64,000 nucleotides of DNA, taken from the NCBI GenBank assembly GCA_025449115.1, contig JAHLKC010000017.1, forward strand, positions 1 through 64,000, in the 5' to 3' direction. The number at the start of each line of letters is the position of its first letter. The stretch's first letter is position 1. Positions 2,213-27,489 of this stretch are shown here, in pieces. The notes beneath the pieces are model-generated. The model was given only the letters and a program-made list of their open reading frames with translations. It was not told where the DNA came from and made no database searches. Source of the DNA: Chytridium lagenaria (taxonomy: Eukaryota > Chytridiomycota > Chytridiomycetes > Chytridiales > Chytridiaceae). The translations under genes and the position numbers were made by a program.

Positions 2213-2528
2213 ATTTTATCTTCTTAATATCTGTATTAATCATTTCTTTTATATTTTTATATCCTACATTATTTGTTTATTTCATTTTCTTAACTATTCT
2301 CCTTATTCGCGTAATCATTTATTTGTATATATATTAATTGTATGTATATTAATTTTAAAATAAAAATACGTTCATTTTTTTATAATTCCTTTGTCCGTTG
2401 TTACGTCGGTTTCAACTTTTCATGTTAACGTCTTTCATTCTTTATACGCTCGTCAATTTCAATGTGGTTTATATATAAAATATTACCTAACCTTCTAACC
2501 CACAGGCCCTTATAACTGAAACGCTTAC

Positions 2529-2925
2529 AAATGCTGTTATCTGTAGCTGTTCTTAATCTGAGCATGATTTATCCGGCCGTTTTTTCAAAATTTACGTTCA
2601 AGTCACCGACTGATATACATTTAATCCTTCGGGAGGTCAAAGTCATTGAAAACATAATTAATAAGGTGGTACACGGGGTTACCGGAAACGCTCAGAAATG
2701 CTGTTATCTATAGCGGTGCAGAATCTGAGCATGATTTATCCAGCCGTTTTTTCGGAATTTACGTTCAAGTCACCGACTGATATAGGATTCACACTTCGGA
2801 AGGCCAATGTCATTGAAAACATAATTAATAAGGTGTACAACAGATTATCGAAACGCTCAGAAATGCTGTTATCTATAGCTGTGCAACATTTGAACTGGAT
2901 TTATCCGGCCGTTTTTGCGTTACAT
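2529..2925. repeat. Tandem repeat, period about 166 bp, about 2.4 copies
   Basis: AAATGCTGTTATCT recurs at 2529, 2696 and 2861 (spacings 167 and 165), with the same following sequence (GCATGATTTATCC, GGCCGTTTTT, CAAGTCACCGACTGATAT). The third copy is truncated after the GGCCGTTTTT block. Short open frames across the units (2531-2713, 2698-2943) come from the repeat and are not called as genes. Confidence 0.75.
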
Positions 2926-3103
2926 TGGATTAAAGTCGACTAATTACTAATTAATAAATTTTTTGAACTTGAATGCTCATACGGCAGTCAATTTTGCGAA
3001 TTTCGACCGGGTAAAAAGCATTCCAGCATCGTGACGGTATGTACGACATTTCTTATTAAGTTACCAAAAAAAAACCCCTCGGGGACCCCTATGTACCCTA
3101 ACC

Positions 3104-3166
3104 CTACATTTCATATTAAGTCAAGTCACACAAAAAAATCGATAACCCTGTGGGGACCCCCATGTA
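3104..3166. repeat. 63-bp direct repeat, copy 1
   Basis: Identical as read to 3807-3869. It runs from CTACATTTCATATTAAG through TCGATAACCCTGTGGGG to CCCCCATGTA and is preceded by ACCCTAACC. A related shorter piece (TTCTTATTAAG...CTCGGGGACCCCTATGTA) precedes it at about 3050-3095. Confidence 0.8.
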
Positions 3167-3227
3167 CCATGTACCCTAACCTAACCCTTTACTAAGTCAC
3201 ATGCACTCGGGAAGTGAGTACCTTAAT

Positions 3228-3510
3228 ACAGTCTACTTGTATCACCCCAATCTGAGACTTGCATATTGTTAGGTGATCTAATATCTATATGTGTGCAAAG
3301 TATCACAAAGTTCTGACCATTCATTCTCACTCAAAATCACCTCAACATTCCCGCATTTATGTATACCATCCCGATTCCTAAGTACTCTGGCACGCGGGAG
3401 GGTGGACCTTAATAGAGTCACTTTGTACCACCCTATTCTGAGTGGTTCATATCGTTCCTGGTATCGATATCTATGCTTGTGCAAAGTATCAGCTAATTCT
3501 GACCATTTGT
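3228..3510. repeat. Diverged tandem repeat, period about 185 bp
   Basis: Matching blocks lie about 185 bp apart: GTATCACCCCAATCTGAG versus GTACCACCCTATTCTGAG, and TGTGCAAAGTATCA followed by TTCTGACCATT in both. No coding interpretation. The minus-strand and plus-strand ORFs here are by-products. Confidence 0.55.
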
Positions 3511-3806
3511 TTCCATGTTATACAGACTTAAAGTTTGAAATCTCCCAATTTTTTCGGAAAATCCGCCAATCATATAGTAAACACAAATTCCATGCTACCC
3601 ATTTGAGTCATACAATATATTTTTGACACTGTTTTTGACATCTCTGCACAATTTGAGGAAGATCTGACCATTAGATCTTGCCGCAGGACAGCGACAAGTC
3701 TACTAATTATTATTATAAAAATTTGTAACTTCCGACGCTTGTACGTCGCTCAATTTTGACAATTTGATTGAGGGTAAAACCGGGTTCGAGATCGTCGCAA
3801 CAAGGG

Positions 3807-3869
3807 CTACATTTCATATTAAGTCAAGTCACACAAAAAAATCGATAACCCTGTGGGGACCCCCATGTA
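3807..3869. repeat. 63-bp direct repeat, copy 2
   Basis: Second copy of 3104-3166, preceded by a GGGTTCGAGA B-box-like core at about 3783. The 640 bp between the copies holds the diverged 185-bp tandem repeat, so the whole block may be one composite repetitive element. Confidence 0.8.
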
Positions 3870-11316: not shown

Positions 11317-12302
11317 CGCTACCTCAACCTGGCTGTATTCAAGGTAATAGTAGGTTTACAGTGCATGCAGCTCAGTGTTTTCGCCAGCATGTTGAGTGGA
11401 TATGGCATCCATTAGGCCCATTTTTGGATTGACTTTTTCGTATCATCCGCTGCTTTTTTCTTATTAAACCACCTGCTGCCTTTCAATTGTTAAATAAACT
11501 TATACAAAAATATACGAAAACTAGTTACAAAACTTCTTTATAAGCACATCGGAACATACCTTGTGATGTTTGATGGATGTTTTGATAGACTTCATCTTTT
11601 GCTTATTAGGACCGGACCCGACCCGAACCCGACCCAAAAGTCGGAGCGGTTCAGCTGGAGGGCGAAACCAAAGCCAGTGGACCGGCCAACAGGCGTACCT
11701 GCACCATCTCCCAGGATCTCGTCACCTTACCCCAAATCATCCAGCATCCCACTTGTCGTCCAAGGTTTAACCTTCCCTCTATCTTGATCTCCGTCCTCAA
11801 GCGAGTATAGCTGCTGGCCAAGTCTTGTTGGTCAAATCCACATCTCGTCCGACCCTGTTATCCTCTCGTTGTCTATTGGCTGAGGATGTTGCGATATCGT
11901 TTCCAAAGCATCTCCTGACAAATCACCCAAAAAACGTCCAGACTTGAGTTTGCAGCCCGTTGTTGTTGATGATGGATCACTCACTCATGGACGATCATTC
12001 ATTCATGTATTCGGCTGCCGCTTCACCGTCTACGGATGCAGATGAGTCGGATACGGATATGACTGTGGTGTCGGGCACAACTTGGGCGACTGGGAATGCA
12101 ATATGTCAACCTTTTTCTGCCTTGCCATCCACTATTCCATCCAGCCAGGTGAGGGATACGTCGTCGATGGTTGCTTAAAGCGAGGCATCGCCTTTTCTTC
12201 TATGCGTCGCCAAAGGCAACGAGCGTTTTGTCGTTGTTTTGTTTTGGTACTGCTGCTATCTAATAGTGGCCACTTTCATGGGTTTATAAAATATCTTCTA
12301 CC
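11317..12302. other. No supported gene; ACCCG microrepeat at about 11,610
   Basis: A short ACCCG/ACCCGA microrepeat lies at about 11612-11637. Small plus-strand ORFs at 11960-12306 might be 5' exons of the methyltransferase that follows, but they show no domain and I cannot connect them by convincing splice sites. Confidence 0.35.
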
Positions 12303-13268
12303 ATGACGGCGACCATTTTATTTTACCCTTCCTTGCTTCCTGTAACAGATTTGGTATTAACAACTGTTATTCAGTCAATCATTCCTATCCTACCAGCTCC
12401 CACCAATTCCTCCGCATCCCTCACCCTTGTCGGTGCAGGACCCGGCTCCCCAGGCCTCCTTACGTTAGCCGCCGCCGAAGCCATTCGCAACGCAACCCTA
12501 ATCATCTCTGACCGTCTCGTCCCGATGGCTCTACTCCAGTCTATCCTCGGTGAGCCTCCTACCTCCTCCTCACGTTTATCCGACGCGGAAGGTCCATGGC
12601 CACACGTCCTTCTCGCTCGTAAAGTTCCTGGAAGGGCTACCCAAGCTCAAGACGAAATCCACGACTGGATCGTCCGAGGGTTGATCATGGGACATCGCGT
12701 TGTTCGTCTAAAGGGTGGGGACCCGTTTGTGTTTGGGAGAGGCGGAGAAGAAATCTTGCATGTTCGTGAGGCTTTGAAAAAACGCGGTGGTCTTCCTGCG
12801 AATCTACTCAAACCATTGACGACAGAATACCCCGGCGCGTCAGTAAACCTCACCGAACCCGACGAAACCAGCCTTCCCCCCATGCTTATAATCCCTGGTC
12901 TCTCTTCCTCCCTCTCCGCCCCCCTCATGGCCGGAATCCCCGTAACACATCGTGGAGTGTCTGATCAAATCCTCATCGCAACTGGACAACGCCAAGATGG
13001 TTCTATGCCAACCCTTCCTTCCTACTGCGCGACACGGACCACCGTCCTTTTGATGTCCATGACACGCATTGACGCGCTAGTGGGTATGATGGTGGGGAAG
13101 ATGGGGTATCCGCCTTTGACGCCAGCGGCGATTATCGAGAAGGCGAGTTGTGGAGAGCAGAGGGTTGTTAGTTGTGTATTGAGAGATGCGCCGGGACGGG
13201 CAGCGGAGATGGGGATCTCATCGCATGCGACGTTGGTTGTAGGAGATGTGGCGAATGTGCTTGTTTGA
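12303..13268 (+). CDS. Uroporphyrinogen-III C-methyltransferase (siroheme pathway, SUMT)
   Basis: Transfers methyl groups from SAM to uroporphyrinogen III to make precorrin-2, the branch point to siroheme, the cofactor of sulfite and nitrite reductases. The 321-residue frame shows the tetrapyrrole methylase fold: LVGAGPGSPGLLTLAAA (N-terminal GAGPG loop, about residue 40), DRLV, GRATQAQDEIH, the RLKGGDPFVFGRGGEE signature (about residue 140), IIPGLSSSLSAP and GIPVTHRG (about 200-215), and a C-terminal VLRDAPGR and TLVVGDV. It contains only the methylase domain. I see no Met8-like dehydrogenase/ferrochelatase part, so it corresponds to yeast MET1 in function. The first about 35 residues are weakly supported, so the start may lie in an upstream exon. 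This is one of the few genes here with no frame break. Confidence 0.9.
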   Translation: MTATILFYPSLLPVTDLVLTTVIQSIIPILPAPTNSSASLTLVGAGPGSPGLLTLAAAEAIRNATLIISDRLVPMALLQSILGEPPTSSSRLSDAEGPWPHVLLARKVPGRATQAQDEIHDWIVRGLIMGHRVVRLKGGDPFVFGRGGEEILHVREALKKRGGLPANLLKPLTTEYPGASVNLTEPDETSLPPMLIIPGLSSSLSAPLMAGIPVTHRGVSDQILIATGQRQDGSMPTLPSYCATRTTVLLMSMTRIDALVGMMVGKMGYPPLTPAAIIEKASCGEQRVVSCVLRDAPGRAAEMGISSHATLVVGDVANVLV

Positions 13269-16948: not shown

Positions 16949-19877
16949 ATGTCTTTGAGCGTCGAGATCGCTCCTGTCGACAACGAGGCAGACTTTGCCG
17001 TCGGATTCCCTTGCGTCGGTCCCGTCACCGTAAAAGGTGTCTGTCGAATCTCAAATGTTGGCAATGCAGCAGTCAATCTTGGGTTCCTTGAAATCCTTCT
17101 CAACGGTGAATCAGGAGGTAGCGTCCCCAACGGCGGTACCGTTGAAGCCATGTCTCTCCTTTTTGCTCGTCAAGTCCTCGTCGTCACAGAGCATCCACCC
17201 GTCCCCATCGGTTGCTCCACCTTCCTTGACCTTCCCTTCCAGTTTGAATTCACCCGCGAGAACGCTTCCCTCCTTCCACCTTCGTCTTGCATCTCCAGAG
17301 ACTACATGGAAGGGTACGTCAAGTACGAGCTTCGTGTGTCTTGGAAGGAATCGGTGAAAGGAGAACCCAATGATACTACACTCATGAGATCGTTTTCGAG
17401 AACCTCGGATCCTTGCGTCTTTAGATACCCAAGGTTTGATCTGGATGATCTCATCCAGTACTTTTATGGAAAGGCGACAAAGGGTATTTCGGGTCGATCC
17501 GACGATAACACTGTCAAGTTTAGCCTTGTTCTGCCCAACTCTTTGATTCCGGATGACGTCTTCAAGTTTGAGTATGCTGTCGTTTCCACAGAGCCAAAGA
17601 ATGCTATCAAGGCGGTTCACTTGCAGATTTGGGAACGGCTTACTCTTGAGACTTTGGACGGAAATGATGTCGACAAGAATGATATGGTGATTATCTCAAA
17701 TACTTAGGGTTAAAGACTCGTCTAACAAGGGCTATATCTCTCGACTTGATCCTCAAAACAAACTTAGGTCTTTATTTATACTGGAGAGCCCGCTAATCCC
17801 GCGGAACCGGCCTTGGAGCTAAAGAGAAAAGTAAGTATTTCATCAAAGTTTCCATTGGGATGGCGTAGAATGCTAAGAACAATGCGTATTTTGAATTAGG
17901 TCCTTCTTCGTGCGCCAAAATGGGTCACTTCCAGCCAACCCGCCACAGAAGTTTCAACCATCACTCCGAGCGTATTTTCCGGATCCGTCAAGATCTCCCA
18001 CTTCATGCGTGTTCTTCTCGAAGTTCAAAGCGGCCTTTCTGTTACTATCGACTCTGACGTTAACGTCATCCCCGTCACCCGTTCCCTCCTCTCGGATCTC
18101 GCCTCACATCCGGAAGCCCTGCGAGGCGCTAACGACCCCAAAGCCACAAAGCTCGCTGTTGTCCTCGAATCTCTTGGTCCATCCATTGACACGGCTGTAT
18201 CGATGAATAGAAATTTGATGAGTGAGGATGAGGAGCTGGCGTTTGCGCTGCAGGCTTCCATGAAGGCGTCGACTGAGCCTAAGAAGGCGAGTGCGGAGGA
18301 TGATGAGTTGGAAAGGGCTTTGCAGCTTTCTAAAATTGAGGCGATTCGATCTTATCATGGTAGAAGCCAGGGGTCGTCTTCGTCGGCTCCAGTACCTACT
18401 GTCATTGGACCGGATGGCCGACCAGCCCCTCCGCCCCGTGGAACTTCCAGTGCGTCCTTTTTCTACTATTTTATTTCCCTTTTCCTCTGTGTTGTTTTAA
18501 TGAACTGTATTTTTCACTCTCCAGAGGTTACCACGATTAACGGGATCGTCCCGGAAGACGAAGCACTTCGTTTAGCCATTGAGAAGTCACAGCAATCTAT
18601 TGACCCTCTTCAGCTTGCCGAGGAAGAGGCTATCCGTCTAGCTATTCTTGAATCTCAGTTGGACGATCGGTTCGAATATTTTCTATTTTTTTTGCCATCT
18701 GTTTCTTTTTTCCCTCAATTAAACATTAACGAATACTATTTACGGTCATTTTAATTAGTGACGTCGAGTTTGCTATGCAGCATGAGCTCATGAATCAACA
18801 CCGCTCGTCGGGATCTTCCTCTTCCTCCTCTGCCGCTTCTCCTTCAAGCTCGTCGTCTAAGGCCGTCGTCGTTCCTCTCGACCAACCTGTCCGCACTCGC
18901 GTCGAGATGGTGAGATAATCATTTTTTCTATATCTGTGTTGATTGATCGCACCATCTTAGGTTTCTATGGACAACGACGATGAACCAAGTCTGAAACGTG
19001 GACCTGGATTCTTCACTATCGTCGGTAGCAAGTTTGAGTCCGCCATCTCCTACGTTGCCCCCACCAACCCCACCGAACCCACTGAAAGTCCTTCCGCCTC
19101 CTCCTCGACTGCAGCTCCAGCGACCGCCCCTCTATCTAACGTCCGCAAAGCTCCTCCCCCAATGCCGCCCCCTCGTCGTGTTCAGCCCACCCTTCCAACA
19201 CCCATCCCAACTCCCACCGCCTCCCCCCCGCTACCCTCGGCATCACCATTGAACCTGTTAAAAAGGTCCCCTTTGCTAAACTCCTTGAGCAAATGGCCCC
19301 TGCAACGCAGCAACATCTTCAAATCCCTGGATCAGGTGGACCCGTCATTGAACCACGTCTTTCGTCGCGGTTATCTAAACGTGATGGATTCAGAGCGGCC
19401 AAGGCGCCAAGTACCCCGGCTGCTGCTGTTAGCGTGCAGTTGAGTTCGACGGGTGGGAAACTTGTCATTCAACCGAGGATGGCGTCGCAGCTAAAGCGGA
19501 GGATGGAAAGATTGAGAGGAGGGTAGTGGTGTTTGATTATACGCCGATGAAGGCGGATGAGATTCCGCTGACAAAGGGTGCTGTTGTGATTGTGACGAAA
19601 AAGTTTATGGATGGAGGGTGAGTTTTTTTTTTAACTTTTTGTTTTTCGGTCGAAAATCACCATTTCTTTGATGCCCTTATTTTTTAATCACATCTTTGCG
19701 CTTTTCACCCTCTCGCTTATATCAAACTCCTTTTCCTTTTTTTTATTTTTCTACGTGTAATTTCAATTTCTCGGTTTATTGATTCTTTCATTTAGGTGCC
19801 TTGGATATTTGGAAAATGAGGGCCATAACTTTGAGGGACATTTCCCCAGTGCCGCACTCTCTCCTTATGCCCTCTAA
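16949..19877 (+). CDS. Arrestin-domain protein with four UIMs and a C-terminal SH3 domain
   Basis: Exons: 16949-17686, 17768-17830, 17900-18449, 18525-18669, 18759-18909, 18961-about 19619, 19797-19877. The first five introns have GT-AG ends and keep phase. Residues 1-about 140 are an arrestin N-like sandwich (VKGVCRISNVGNAAVNLGFL, LDLPFQFEFTREN, LLPPSSC, EGYVKYELRVSW). Residues about 185-320 are arrestin C-like (VKFSLVLPNSL, FKFEYAVVSTEP, LLRAPKWV, SGSVKISHFMRVLLEV). Four canonical ubiquitin-interacting motifs follow: EDEELAFALQAS, EDDELERALQLS, EDEALRLAIEKS and EEEAIRLAILES, plus a weak fifth (DVEFAMQHEL). After a Pro-rich linker the end reads VVVFDYTPMKADEIPL...VVIVTKKF...GYLENEGHNFEGHFP, an SH3 domain. 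Alpha-arrestins are cargo adaptors for ubiquitination and endocytosis; UIM plus SH3 is the toolkit of ESCRT-0-type sorters. I infer an endosomal or endocytic ubiquitin-binding adaptor. Frame breaks at about 19220 (C7 run) and about 19500 must be corrected to reach the SH3. Confidence 0.8.
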
Positions 19878-20221: not shown

Positions 20222-23200
20222 ATGAAGTTCATGCTGGATGGCCTCCCGGTCCTCTTCCCATACGACTACATCTACCCGGAACAGTATGCCTACATGAAAG
20301 ACATGAAGCGCGCGTTGGACGCAAAGGTCTTCTCATCGCTCATGTCCATCCATCCTCCTTTCCTCATGCATGCATGCATATATAATCTCATGCTTTCATT
20401 CAGGGCCACTGCCTACTAGAGATGCCTTCAGGAACCGGAAGACCGTCTCCCTCCTCTCCCTTATCGTCGCATACCAACAGGCATGTGGAAAACATCACCA
20501 CCAAGATTCTAATATCTCTGCAGTTTTACCCTGAGAAACGCAAGCTCATTTATTGCTCTCGAACAGTCCCCGAGATTGAAAAGGCTTTGGCGGAACTGCG
20601 GCGATTGATGGAGTACCGCGCAAGTCATGGATTGAATGAAAGCTTTCTGGGGTTAGGACTATCATCAAGAAGGAACCTGTGTGTGCATCCACAGGTGTGA
20701 TTTCAACATGTGGCCAAGTTGGGTCTTGACGTCTTTGTTAGGTTAGTCAGGAGAAGCGAGGGACTTTTGTGGATGCAAAGTGTCGAAGTCTCACGGCTTC
20801 ATGGGTGAGGGAGGCTGCGAGGAATGCGCCGACTGGAGATATTGAACTATGCGAGTTTTTCGAGGTTTGCTCGAGGATGCTCTTGGATCTTGTTTTGACA
20901 CTTTTTTCAAGAATCTTGAGGATGCTGAATCTACGGCGACGATGCCTGCAGGTGTATATACATTGGATGATTTGAAGGAGTTTGGAGAGAAGAAGAAATA
21001 CTGCCCTTACTTTCTCGCTCGACGGATGGTAGGAAATCCTGACGGCGATGATCTGAAGTATCTCGTCAGATTCCTTTCGCCAACGTTGTCATCTACAGTT
21101 ATCATTATCTGCTTGATCCCAAAGTTGCAGAAATGGTTTCAAAGGAACTTTCAAAGGATTGCATTGTGGTTTTTGATGAGGCTCACAACATCGGTACGGC
21201 TTTGGTTTCCATTCTTTTTATTTCTAACTGATATTTGAATACAGATAACGTTTGCACAGAATCATTGAGCATTGATTTGACGAGACCGATTTTGGATGCA
21301 AGCGTTAGAAGTATTACGTCGTTGACTTCAAGGATTGATGAGTTGGGTATTTTGATGATAACTGTTTATATTGATTTTTTGACCTTTACACATTTTAGCT
21401 TAAAAAAAAGCAACTCGGAGAAGCTTCAGAACGAATATAATAAATTGGTTGAAGGTATGCGGAGGCCGTTGTACATCTTGTTTCTTACAGGGATTCTTTT
21501 TTTTTACGGCCTCAGGGTTAAACTTGGCAAGAAACCAGAGAGATGCTGATGAGGTCATGGCGAATCCAGGTATATACATTAAGATATAACATCATATCTG
21601 ATATTTATTTCTCCACAAAAGTTCTTCCCGACGATATTTTGGACGAGGCTGTTCCCGGGAACATTCGCCGTGCTGAGCACTTTGTAGCTTTTTTAAGGCG
21701 ATTTGTAGAATACTTGAAGGTAACGGATCTATATTCTGATGCTTTCATTCAATATCGACGCTAAGTGAGTTCTCTGATTGTAGACAAGAATGCGTGTTCT
21801 TCATGTTGTTGCTGAGAGCACCACCTCCTTCCTGCAGCACGTCAAGGAGATTACTTACATCGAGAAAAAGCCATTAAGGTACGATTCTAGAATCACGATG
21901 GAGATGGAATATAACCGACCCTTTATTAACGTAATTTTTTCATCCAGATTTTGTGCAGAGCGGCTGTCAAGTTTGGTGCGAACACTGGAGGTCGCAGATT
22001 TGAGCGATCTTGGCTCATTATCCAAAGTCGCGGCCTTTGCAACGCTGGTATCAACCTATCAGAAAGGTATTCGATTAGTGAGGAATGGCTTTATTGATGT
22101 CGCATATAGGCTTTATGTTGATTTTAGAGCCGTTTGAGAATGATCACGACACGATTCCTAATCCTGTGCTGCATCTGACGTATGTGTTTACAAGATCATT
22201 CGTTTGCTTGCTTTTACTAGCTGTAACTCTTATTAATTATTTTGAAATAGTTGCATGGACGCTACGATCGCGATGAAGCCGATTTTTGAACGCTTCAGCT
22301 CTGTTGTTATCACCTCTGGAACACTTTCGCCGATGGAACTATACCCCACCCTTCTTGGGTTCAAACCAGTCGTTGTTCAAAGTTACCAGATGTCATTGAC
22401 CCGTACTTGTTTCTTGCCTCTTGTAAGTTACCTTTGACCTTCATTCAAGTCGTCCCATCTATATCCTGCTCATTCAAGTCGTCCTATCTACATCTGCTAT
22501 GTTTCTCACTCGTTCTTATTTATTTATTTATTTTAGACTATCACCCGAGGCAGTGATCAGGTTGCCGTTAGCTCTAAATTCGAAGTCCGGAATGACGTTG
22601 CTGTAGTGAGAAATTACGGAAACATCCTTATCGAGTTTGCGCGGATTGTGCCGGACGGTCTTGTGTGTTTCTTCCCTAGTTATCTCTACCTTGAGTCCAT
22701 TGTTGCATCGTGGAATGAACTGGTATGTCTTACTATCTCGTTTTCTTCCTTATCGTTATATGTATGCTAAGTGACTACTTTATCATAAAGGGTATGCTTC
22801 AAGAGATGTTGAAGTATAAGCTTGTGTTTATTGAAACCCCCGATGCTGTGGAGACAAGTTTGGCGCTTGAGAATTACAGAAAGGTATCTTCCTTTTAAAG
22901 TTAAGAGTTTAAATGCTTACTTCGTTCTCTCAGGCTTGCGATAATGGAAGAGGAGCCATCTTGCTCTCTGTTGCTCGTGGAAAGGTCTCTGAGGGAGTCG
23001 ATTTTGATAACAATTATGGACGTGCTTGTGATTCTCTTTGGAATTCCTTATCAGGTTTGTAAAGCGGTTGTTTAGCCAGGATATCATCTAATCTTTTCTT
23101 GATTAGTACACGGAAAGTCGTATCTTGAAGGTGAGTTCTTTGGGATACCTCTTTTTAAATGGTGTTATAAACTTACGCGGACCCCTTGGATAGGCTCGTC

Positions 23201-24380: not shown

Positions 24381-26569
24381 TAAACTCTTGGTGTCACCAC
24401 TGAACTCGTCATAGAATCCCTAACAGGGTACACATGCATACTGTTCCCACCCTCCGAAAACGTGACTCCCTTCCCAGCAGCATTCGGCAACGGCGGCACA
24501 GGCCCACCATCGGCATCCCAGTCGCCGGATCAATCATGACGCTTCCAGTAAAAGACGGATACCCATACGACGCAGCGGTAGGAGGGGCTGACGGCAAACC
24601 CTCATCCAAAGCAGGATCATACCCATGAGTCCTCAAATACTCTTCCTTCCCGACGGTTTTAAGGGCGTTCATTTGATCTGCAGTGAAGATGGCGGATGAG
24701 ACGCGTTTAGAGAAGCGATCGGGGACGACGCTTGCGGGGACTTCGCTGGGAGCCATGGAGGAACGGTTGTCGTTTGCCACGCAGACGAGGGGGAAGGCAC
24801 CTTGAGCTCCTGTGATGGGGTTCATGCCGAGACCCCAGCCGTCGTCAAAGGAGCGGAGGACGATGATGTCGGCGCCGACGACGAGTTGGAGTTCGTCAGC
24901 GAGAGTTGGGTTGTAGGGATGGATGATGCGCATGAGGGATTCTGGGGGAGTTGGGGTTGAGGTGGAGGGGGTGAAGGAGGGGGACGGATGCCGTCTGAAG
25001 CGGCGACGGCGGCGAGGACGGGGTTGAAGGCTTTCGGGGGGGAGGGGGAACGGGTGGGTTGTTGTGGGGTTGGTTGTTGAGGTTGGGGTTGCTGGAGTGT
25101 TGGTAGGATGGAGCTGGAGGTTGAACCGCGGGGGAGGAAAGGTTTTGCATTTGGACATCGTTGGAGTTGTAGCCGAATGATTGATGCTGTTGCTGCTGCT
25201 GGTACTGCTGATCGTAAGACTGCTGCTGGTACGACTGCTGTTGGTACGACTGCTGTTGGTACTGTTGCTGCTGGTACTGCGGCTGTTGCTGTTGTTGAGA
25301 AGAGAATCCACCGATATCGCCTTTTGGGGGAACGCTGATGGTGTCGGGGAGCCAAAGGAGCGTTGCTGTTGAGGTTAATACGAATCTTTTTATCCGATGA
25401 CGAAGAAGATGCCGCAGCACCCATGCCCGATGGGTTATGTCCAAAGTGAGGGCTGACGGGGGCGTTTGCCTTTGAGGACCGACGACGCATCAAAAAGATA
25501 CCCAGAACGACGGCAGCTGCAATAAGGAGGACACCACCAACAGCTCCACCGATGATAACGCCCATATTGGAGGAGGCTGCAGCTGGAGTAGAGGTAGAAG
25601 TGGGTGTGATTTGACCACTAGAGCCGGAGGTTGTTGCGATAGGACGGTTAGCGGTTGTTGATGGCCTCGTTGTGGCGGCAGGGGCTGAAGGGCGCCGCCC
25701 GGAGGTGCAGGTCCAGGTTCAGCAGGACCGTTGGGAGTGGAAGCGAGACCGTTTGCTTGCAAGAATGCAGCGCAGATGGCATCGTTACTATTCTGGCATC
25801 CAGCAACGGCGTTCGCGTAGCTCGAGTATCCTGCAAAGAGATTATTTTCGTGAGAAAAAAAAAAAAAAACAAATAAAATGGGTGTGTGAAATAATTCATT
25901 CTTTCCCACGGTATAAAGTGTAAATGCGTCAAAATAAACCATTCTTTCCCACGGTATAAACACTGGGCAGCAATTAAACAAAAGCACCGTCGAGAGAGCA
26001 GTTTGAAGGAATTTGATTTGTCCTCCTTCTGCAGTCCGGTCCGACGGAAAATGTTGGTAAAATGAAAACTCACCAGCCAATCCAACGTCTTCGGCCACTC
26101 CGGAAAAGCATGTCGAAGAGTCCACCGCAGCATTATTTCTGTCGACAATCAAGCTCAGGCCTTGGAAGGTAGCGCCGGCGTGCGAGTTGGGGTCAGTGAT
26201 GTCGACACTGGGACACAGTTCAGTGTTGGTGATCAAGGCCCTGAAGCTGTCCAAGGCAAGGGTAGCCTGATCGGGGCAGAGATAGTTTCTTGCGGGATAA
26301 GGATCAGGTTGGCATCCATTAAGAGTGGCGTTGAGAGCATATCTGACACAAAAGAGTGAAGTCTGATAGCGGAGGCTCTGCATGGCCTGGTCGAGGGCAG
26401 GAGAGTCGATGCAGGCGTATCTGGTGTCTGAGGTGAATGAGGATTTGACGGTTGAGGTGGAGTTGATGGAGCGAAGGACGTTTCCCACATCTCCGGCCAG
26501 AATGTGGTTGAGACCCTCAAAGAGGGTGCCGCATGGAGTATCTCCTGGGAAAGGTCTGCAGGTGGCCAT
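24381..26569 (-). CDS. Single-pass membrane protein with cytoplasmic SH3 domain
   Basis: Exon 1 (26569 to about 26076) encodes a Cys-containing luminal or extracellular domain (CRPFPGDTPCGTLFEGLNHI, CIDSPALDQAMQSL, LCPSVDI). After a GTGAGT...TTGCAG intron of about 245 bp it continues YSSYANAVAGCQNSNDAICA, a Ser/Thr-rich stalk (after a frame slip near 25690), one clear membrane span GVIIGGAVGGVLLIAAAVVL with an FLMRRR stop-transfer (about 25490-25560), and a Gln/Tyr/Pro-rich linker. The last domain reads IHPYNPTLADELQLVVGADI...FDDGWGLGMN...GAFPLVCV, an SH3. The corrected end is the TAA at 24381-24383. The layout resembles fungal Fus1/Sho1-style SH3 membrane proteins, which organise polarity or osmosensing, but it has one span rather than Sho1's four. 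No signal peptide is visible at the chosen ATG, so a 5' exon may be missing. Confidence 0.75.
25898..25959. repeat. 41-bp tandem duplication in the intron of the TM-SH3 gene
   Basis: ATTCTTTCCCACGGTATAAA occurs twice, 41 bp apart, inside the intron that separates the extracellular exon from the stalk exon. It explains why this intron is longer than its neighbours. Confidence 0.6.
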
Positions 26570-27489
26570 TCTTCTCCTTCTTCTATTGATAACGTGGTAT
26601 GGATGTCTATAAGTTCTCCTTTAGGGAAAGAAGACTAGATAAAATATTAAGAATGAAAGATGAAGGAAAGACAGCTGAATCAATGACGGACTCCAGCGAT
26701 ACCTTCAAAAGAAAACCAGAAAGTCTATAATTAGAGAGGGAATATGGACGACAATTAGATTTGCAGGATGTTCAATGTTCTCAGTTAGTCAATTTGGCAC
26801 AAGAGCAACCAATAGAAACGACATGACAGGCTGGCCATGGCGGTTATGTGTCACACAAACCAAGAAACGACGGTTGTTGAACGTTGTGTAACATAACAAT
26901 AAACTTTGACTCAAATGACGCCACACACACAAGAAAATGAGGCTGCAACGGTCTCCATCGACACCCTCATCATCTTTTGACCCATAAAGAACCGATCACC
27001 ATTTCTACCTGCAAAGATTAAAGACGCAGTCAGGATAGTTCTACGATCATACCCTTCAATACACCACTTAGCGGAGAACAAGGCGAAAAGGGCACATCTG
27101 ATTCCAGTCGTCCAATTTTCCTTTTTTAAAATTTTGAAAGCGAATATCGTCGCTGTCAACAGTTGGCATGTTGACACAGTGACACTGACCTGTCTTCCAT
27201 GAGAATCTGAAAGTACGCATGTCAAAATGATAACTGGAGCCCGCTCATTGTCAAAATGAAAATGGACATCACTTAACTTGAAATTGTCAAACCCTCAAAA
27301 GTTCAGCGCGTGGACGGAATCTCAGCGAATCATGGCTGCTTGCTACGCACATGCTGCACGCCCTTCCAGGAGACGCTTGGATCCACGGACATCTTTAGCC
27401 TGCTAGATAATAATATAAGAAGGCCACACAGGTTCTACGCAGCCCAAACACTCACATCTCATCCCCTTCATTAGAACCTCATTCGACCC

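Follow-up and report, generated by a model that had tools for sequence, protein, structure and literature searches.

We analyzed a 64,000-nucleotide stretch of the Chytridium lagenaria genome (contig JAHLKC010000017.1, C17 in our numbering, positions 1 to 64,000; hereafter the window) and found that the gene at 16949-19877 (+) encodes a single protein with a predicted arrestin fold, four ubiquitin-interacting motifs (UIMs), proline-rich linkers and an SH3 domain. It corresponds to public protein BC829DRAFT_385144 (P0005, 753 residues), annotated only as "hypothetical protein", from a genome of 41.9 Mb in 356 contigs. The gene probably belongs to a conserved chytrid family, here termed arrestin-UIM-SH3, of STAM/Hse1-like ubiquitin-reading trafficking adaptors with an arrestin fold in the place of the VHS domain. 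The architecture is conserved among related proteins, which lack PPxY motifs. It suggests that the protein may bind ubiquitin and cargo and act in trafficking.

The window gene has seven exons, separated by GT...AG introns of 81, 69, 75, 89, 51 and 178 nucleotides that all keep the frame (Table 1). Exon joining reproduces P0005 letter for letter when two small annotated introns (86 and 38 nucleotides) are included, by which the public model spans two frame switches in exon 6. An earlier reading made from the sequence only had proposed that in-phase introns join the arrestin part, four UIMs, a proline-rich linker and the SH3 domain. Its architecture holds, and the six introns between the exons keep the frame, but it overlooked the two switches in exon 6 (18961-19617). 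In exon 3, one open frame runs through the final two arrestin strands, residues 296-309 and 314-323 in the P0005 structure model, and through UIM1 and UIM2. A paralogue is found on contig C30 (locus L002), where our exon model is 100% identical to public protein P0001 over its whole length. Here, the end of the arrestin C-lobe, three UIMs and the beginning of the SH3 domain all lie in one uninterrupted exon. In the arrestin part, 99 of 315 aligned residues are identical between the two genes, and the phase-0 intron after window exon 2 occurs in the paralogue at the same alignment column. A second common intron, of phase 2, lies inside the SH3 domain at the same aligned residue (before exon 7 in the window gene; exon ends read against the alignment). 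All seven public models, both C. lagenaria proteins counted, combine the arrestin part with at least one UIM in a single protein. The SH3 domain is complete in five of them, halved in P0006, whose model stops at the shared SH3 intron, and absent from P0004, which is labelled partial.

It is hardly credible that annotation fused an adjacent arrestin gene and a UIM/SH3 gene. The two frame switches ahead of the window SH3 domain would fit such an artefact, but in each paralogue a single open exon holds both arrestin strands and UIMs, the introns are common to both genes, and the seven models agree in joining arrestin part and UIM. We rejected the artefact because the paralogue's single exon spans the arrestin end, the UIMs and the SH3 start. 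The earlier claim of one gene is thus borne out by exon, paralogue and model evidence at the sequence level.

Both stretches of exon 6 that the public model skips look coding. The arrestin part is 89% and 80% identical in the orthologues P0006 (Dinochytrium kinnereticum) and P0007 (Phlyctochytrium bullatum), and both have coding residues across the two switches. In the alignment, Dinochytrium has GISIKTVKKVPF at the first place, where the window gene has GITIEPVKKVPF, and TSGGKLVIQPRMAS at the second, where the window gene has STGGKLVIQPRMAS. As the orthologues code through both places, the switches probably are one-base assembly indels. By eye, similar apparent switches occur elsewhere in this assembly, at the SH3 end of an Hse1-like gene and within a third arrestin gene, which likewise indicates assembly indels. 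Most likely, the switches hence are one-base assembly errors or a lesion of the strain.

The window protein has an arrestin fold by prediction only. In structure searches with its predicted model, P0005 matched two-lobed beta-sandwich arrestin folds. Vps26 entries headed both the Foldseek and the VIA rows, and TXNIP and arrestin entries were also matched; identity to P0005 in the VIA rows was 5-17%. In VIA, entries less than 1 Z apart count as equal, which holds for a Vps26 entry (12.9) and an arrestin entry with a G protein-coupled receptor (12.4). For the paralogue P0001, ARRD-6 and TXNIP entries were the top Foldseek rows, obtained with a poor model (mean predicted local distance difference test, pLDDT, 48.4) in which the SH3 fold is not visible. 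Arrestin_C scored 27.4, 22.6, 22.4 and 24.9 bits in the paralogue clade (P0001-P0004), all under the cut-off of 27.7, although PF02752 is among the families precomputed for P0001. We call the fold because low-confidence predicted structures match it and because Arrestin_C falls just below its cut-off in the paralogue; by the Pfam cut-offs of Arrestin_N and Arrestin_C, the proteins are not assigned to the alpha-arrestins. Sequence searches of the PDB returned no arrestin, neither with a seven-row profile of P0001-P0007 (four matches, all on the UIM stretch) nor with P0001 (52 of 52 rows inside the SH3 region, residues 451-545). A protein search with exon 1 only gave no match of any kind among 508 candidates at E<=0.01, its length limit having shut out full-length relatives.

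For the UIM array, we used the pattern hydrophobic-x-x-A-x-x-x-S preceded by at least three acidic residues in five. P0005 contains it four times, compared with a maximum of two among 20000 residue shuffles, and the four UIM strings quoted in the sequence-only reading are all present in P0005. Pattern counts were 4, 3 and 4 in P0005-P0007 and 3, 3, 3 and 1 in P0001-P0004. UIM1 is identical at 16 of 17 residues in both orthologues, and the seven residues that follow it at one of seven. For Dinochytrium and Phlyctochytrium, respectively, identity was 7/17 and 11/17 in UIM2, 12/15 and 12/17 in UIM3, and 14/17 and 14/17 in UIM4. Pfam assigns the UIM above its cut-off of 21 on the exon-3 piece of the window gene (21.2 bits) and in four of the seven whole proteins (P0002 25.8, P0003 25.8, P0004 21.4, P0006 22.2). 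A profile of all seven proteins matched AN1-type zinc finger protein 2B best among solved UIM stretches (E 0.0014); those of RAP80, STAM2 and ataxin-3 were matched at E 0.093-0.93 (STAM2, a weak match, 0.79).

SH3_2 scored 27.0 bits on P0005 against a cut-off of 21.8, and the SH3 domain also passed in P0007 (28.1), P0002 (SH3_1, 24.0) and P0003 (SH3_2, 22.8), i.e., in four of seven proteins. It remained below the cut-off in P0001 (20.6 versus 21.8) and in P0006, which has half a domain (22.3 versus 22.9), and none was found in the partial P0004. Our motif scan confirmed the earlier remark that PPxY is missing: it is absent from P0005 and from the other six of the seven proteins P0001-P0007. 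In P0005 [PL]PxY is absent as well, so that the window protein shows neither PPxY nor a related PY motif for Nedd4/Rsp5, although one of these would be expected of an alpha-arrestin or ART (arrestin-related trafficking adaptor). One of the seven proteins, P0002, has LPRY within its arrestin part.

Two further conserved segments accompany these domains. The box LKRGPGFFTIVGSKFESA (KRGPGFFTIVGSKFESA) at window 18991-19044 stands in an otherwise variable linker, with few changes among the three window-clade proteins, and is a possible unrecognised binding motif. In the paralogue clade, a conserved C-terminal tail follows the SH3 domain (L002 ~3255-3394); it forms two helices in the P0001 model and is faintly SHOCT-like in one of three proteins (12.7 bits, cut-off 27). 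With NCBIfam, P0005 and P0007 had no match, and the single match of P0001 was weak and below the cut-off.

The sequence-only reading had suggested a search for the architecture in other chytrids, and protein searches and alignment indeed located it in other Chytridiaceae and in the paralogue. With the full-length query, four proteins were retrieved (E<=1e-5; 7995 candidates sharing most words scored). The relatives retrieved for both genes belong to Chytridiaceae, P. bullatum being placed via its genus-mate P. planicorne; because the protein search depends on words in common, other taxa may still have such genes. A small tree of the first 400 residues, rooted at its midpoint, is split by a single fully supported inner branch into two groups. 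Each has representatives from Chytridium, Dinochytrium and Phlyctochytrium, whose order inside the group the tree does not resolve. Since both groups hold the three genera, the duplication most simply predates their split.

The same genome encodes ESCRT-0-type proteins (ESCRT, endosomal sorting complex required for transport). A Vps27-like gene matches VHS (71.7 bits), FYVE (68.5) and UIM (26.1, two stretches), and an Hse1-like gene matches VHS (70.4) and SH3_1 (41.6). In the Hse1-like gene, we recognised the UIM only by eye, whereas Pfam returned no family for that frame at E<=0.1. In total, the genome has six VHS matches at three places. P0005 itself gave no VHS match at E<=1 and so does not have the N-terminal VHS domain of STAM/Hse1. 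The presence of VHS+FYVE+UIM and VHS+SH3 genes indicates that arrestin-UIM-SH3 proteins are additional to ESCRT-0, and to that extent we rejected replacement. Among other arrestin loci of the genome, PPxY occurred in two of 13 scanned (of 16; L010, L012 and L021, which adjoin scanned ones, were omitted), but the scanned pieces of ~3 kb may cut tails, so that the contrast with "ordinary" arrestins is weak.

Some of these loci deserve mention in their own right. L006 (C110 ~68560-70260; 770-2470 +) holds a third arrestin-like gene, in which Arrestin_C reaches 22.7 bits (E 0.00014) when the exons are joined, against a cut-off of 27.7. An SH3 domain follows closely (SH3_9 31.1 bits on joined halves, cut-off 30), by eye with no UIM in between, and the frame apparently switches once near a G run. 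Arrestin plus SH3 may thus be a wider theme in C. lagenaria. L030 carries at 2266-3848 (-) a gene that reads as WD40-like and has a UIM-like motif in its frame (17.2 bits against a cut-off of 21); an arrestin-like gene lies beside it but is distinct from it. A UIM match close to an arrestin match on C16 was rejected as a fusion, as frame reading assigned it to a separate WD40-like gene.

Several results weigh against an arrestin-based ubiquitin reader. For the fold, Pfam Arrestin_N and Arrestin_C do not find the window gene, and at E<=1 no arrestin family appears in P0005. When residues 1-350 of P0005 were searched against proteins (E<=0.01, 5215 candidates), only the protein itself and its two orthologues were returned, and no known arrestin. 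The P0005 model has a low mean pLDDT of 51.4, TMt is 0.17-0.39 among the matches listed, and in many VIA rows the match is confined to the C-lobe. For the UIMs, whole-protein Pfam scores stay below the cut-off in P0005 (11.1), P0001 (20.6) and P0007 (18.2), and the Dinochytrium UIM2, identical at only 7/17 positions, has Val for the key Ala, so that our pattern misses it. The HMMER check proposed earlier hence came out divided, with SH3_2 passing on P0005 and the UIM on the exon-3 piece, but with no arrestin family and no passing UIM on whole P0005. Furthermore, the SH3 groove Trp, which is part of the PxxP-binding site, is missing from the window clade; P0005 and P0007 have DGGCLGY, and P0006 ends earlier. 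The Trp is kept in all three paralogue-clade SH3 domains (DDWAEGY and similar) and in the Hse1-like SH3. The window-clade partner may therefore differ from an ordinary PxxP ligand, and ligand choice may differ between the two clades. Finally, the two frame switches could mean that the gene is damaged in this strain, i.e., a pseudogene.

Known systems share parts of this layout. STAM/Hse1 proteins are arranged as VHS-UIM-SH3. Like them, the window family has UIMs followed by SH3, and the UIM stretch weakly matches STAM2 in the profile search above; unlike them, it has a predicted arrestin fold for VHS and an array of three to four UIMs, and a separate Hse1-like gene exists. With alpha-arrestins/ARTs (fungal ARTs, Rim8/PalF; animal ARRDC, TXNIP) it would share an N-terminal two-lobe arrestin fold and a long tail with linear motifs, and the solved folds nearest to the predicted models include entries for TXNIP and ARRD-6. 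The family differs in having UIMs and SH3 in the tail, in lacking PPxY in all seven proteins and in sequences under the Pfam arrestin cut-offs. Adc-type arrestins of Dictyostelium and Entamoeba likewise join an arrestin core to trafficking domains. According to PMC2699828, the Dictyostelium partner domains are SAM, MIT, LIM, FYVE and C2, an organisation seemingly limited to Amoebozoa, and the words SH3 and UIM are absent from its main text.

In the mechanism we favor, the two-lobed N-terminal arrestin fold would most likely select a membrane protein or one of its partners. With its three or four helices, the UIM array could bind ubiquitin on cargo or on ubiquitylated adaptors with avidity, and the proline-rich linker and SH3 domain would tie the complex to the endocytic or endosomal machinery. 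By analogy, the protein might work like STAM/Hse1 beside an ordinary ESCRT-0, with cargo choice added by the arrestin fold. We may speculate, more tentatively, that this arrestin lineage does without PY-mediated ligase recruitment and reads ubiquitin itself. It would then be an arrestin-based second ESCRT-0, where a single molecule checks both the identity of the cargo and its ubiquitin.

Alternatively, the protein could write rather than read ubiquitin, as a PY-less ligase adaptor whose UIMs recruit ubiquitylated Rsp5/Nedd4 or E2-ubiquitin, with coupled monoubiquitylation of itself and its cargo. UIM proteins are often monoubiquitylated themselves, and with PPxY in none of the seven proteins the family would have to reach a ligase in some other way; the ligase-binding motifs covered by our search were PPxY and LPxY. 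Alpha-arrestins are generally ligase adaptors (PMC3439951). Three to four UIMs with an SH3 domain are closer to the layout of an ESCRT-0 reader, however, and we regard an adaptor of this kind as unlikely. An improbable alternative is a Vps26-like or other retrieval or coat subunit, whose arrestin fold would pair with Vps35-like or other coat partners under regulation by the UIM/SH3 tail. Vps26 and VPS26C are not known to have a UIM or SH3 tail, but share the arrestin fold, and Vps26 is the top-ranked structural match of the P0005 model. This rank is offset by the VIA tie with the arrestin entry, by the ARRD-6 and TXNIP rows that lead for the paralogue, and by Arrestin_C, the sole fold-bearing Pfam match in the paralogue clade, although sub-cut-off. 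Arrestin and ESCRT contacts could also serve signalling instead of cargo degradation, in a pH or stress scaffold of the PalF/Rim8 type. According to PMC3439951, the Rim8 arrestin joins a membrane sensor to ESCRT-I, but relies on an SxP motif and its own monoubiquitylation, and we find such a scaffold quite improbable.

Arrestins are known chiefly for bringing ubiquitin ligases to cargo. A conserved PPxY-less arrestin with built-in UIMs would suggest that the fold is also used on the ubiquitin-reading side, and it provides a one-gene testable model for the joint reading of cargo identity and ubiquitin. In open-licence literature, no description of arrestin, UIM and SH3 in combination appeared in titles or abstracts among the matches listed, in agreement with the sequence-only reading, which was aware of none; as far as searched, this is a new domain combination with a plausible role. 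Links between separate proteins are described in two papers: in animals, beta-arrestin1 binds STAM1 directly, a two-protein version (PMC10755771), and in fungi, Rim8 links arrestin to ESCRT-I (PMC3439951). If our proposal is true, the window family would be a natural fusion supporting the arrestin-STAM tie of animal cells, and cargo-specific sorting via an arrestin-based second ESCRT-0 would turn that partnership into a single protein.

Table 1. Features of the arrestin-UIM-SH3 gene (window positions; residues of P0005)
Feature	Position	Strand	Basis
Exon 1: start codon and most of predicted arrestin fold, residues 1-246	16949..17686	+	exon joins, structure model
Exon 2: predicted arrestin C-lobe, residues 247-267	17768..17830	+	exon joins, paralogue alignment
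Exon 3: last predicted arrestin strands (to ~18088), linker helices, UIM1, UIM2; one open frame	17900..18449	+	open reading frame, Pfam, model
UIM1 SEDEELAFALQASMKA, residues 375-390	18221..18268	+	Pfam, pattern
UIM2 AEDDELERALQLSKIE, residues 399-414	18293..18340	+	pattern
Exon 4: UIM3, UIM4	18525..18669	+	exon joins
UIM3 PEDEALRLAIEKSQQS, residues 460-475	18551..18598	+	pattern; Pfam UIM 11.2 bits on exon piece
UIM4 AEEEAIRLAILESQLD, residues 482-497	18617..18664	+	pattern
Exon 5: serine-rich linker	18759..18909	+	exon joins
Exon 6: conserved box KRGPGFFTIVGSKFESA, proline-rich linker, more conserved boxes, SH3 first half; two frame switches	18961..19617	+	exon joins, orthologue alignment
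First frame switch, at C run (~19225)	19220..19232	+	frame reading; residues coded here in orthologues
Second frame switch, just ahead of SH3 (~19490-19525)	19485..19525	+	frame reading; residues coded here in orthologues
SH3 first half	19526..19617	+	Pfam
Exon 7: SH3 second half, stop codon	19796..19877	+	exon joins, Pfam

Three neighbouring genes were noted in the window. A tetrapyrrole methylase domain (PF00590, E 5.4e-33) lies at 12267-13265 (+), in what we take to be a likely uroporphyrinogen methyltransferase gene of the siroheme pathway. Downstream of the arrestin-UIM-SH3 gene, the gene at 20222-21500 (+) appears RAD3/XPD-like by reading; DEAD_2 helicase matches it at 20846-21235 with 31.5 bits (E 1.7e-7), above the cut-off of 21. 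At 24409-26617 (-), we saw by eye an ectodomain, a hydrophobic stretch and then an SH3 domain (SH3_9 28.8 bits, cut-off 30; SH3_1 22.8, cut-off 22.9), with an apparent frame switch; this perhaps is a membrane protein with a cytoplasmic SH3 domain.
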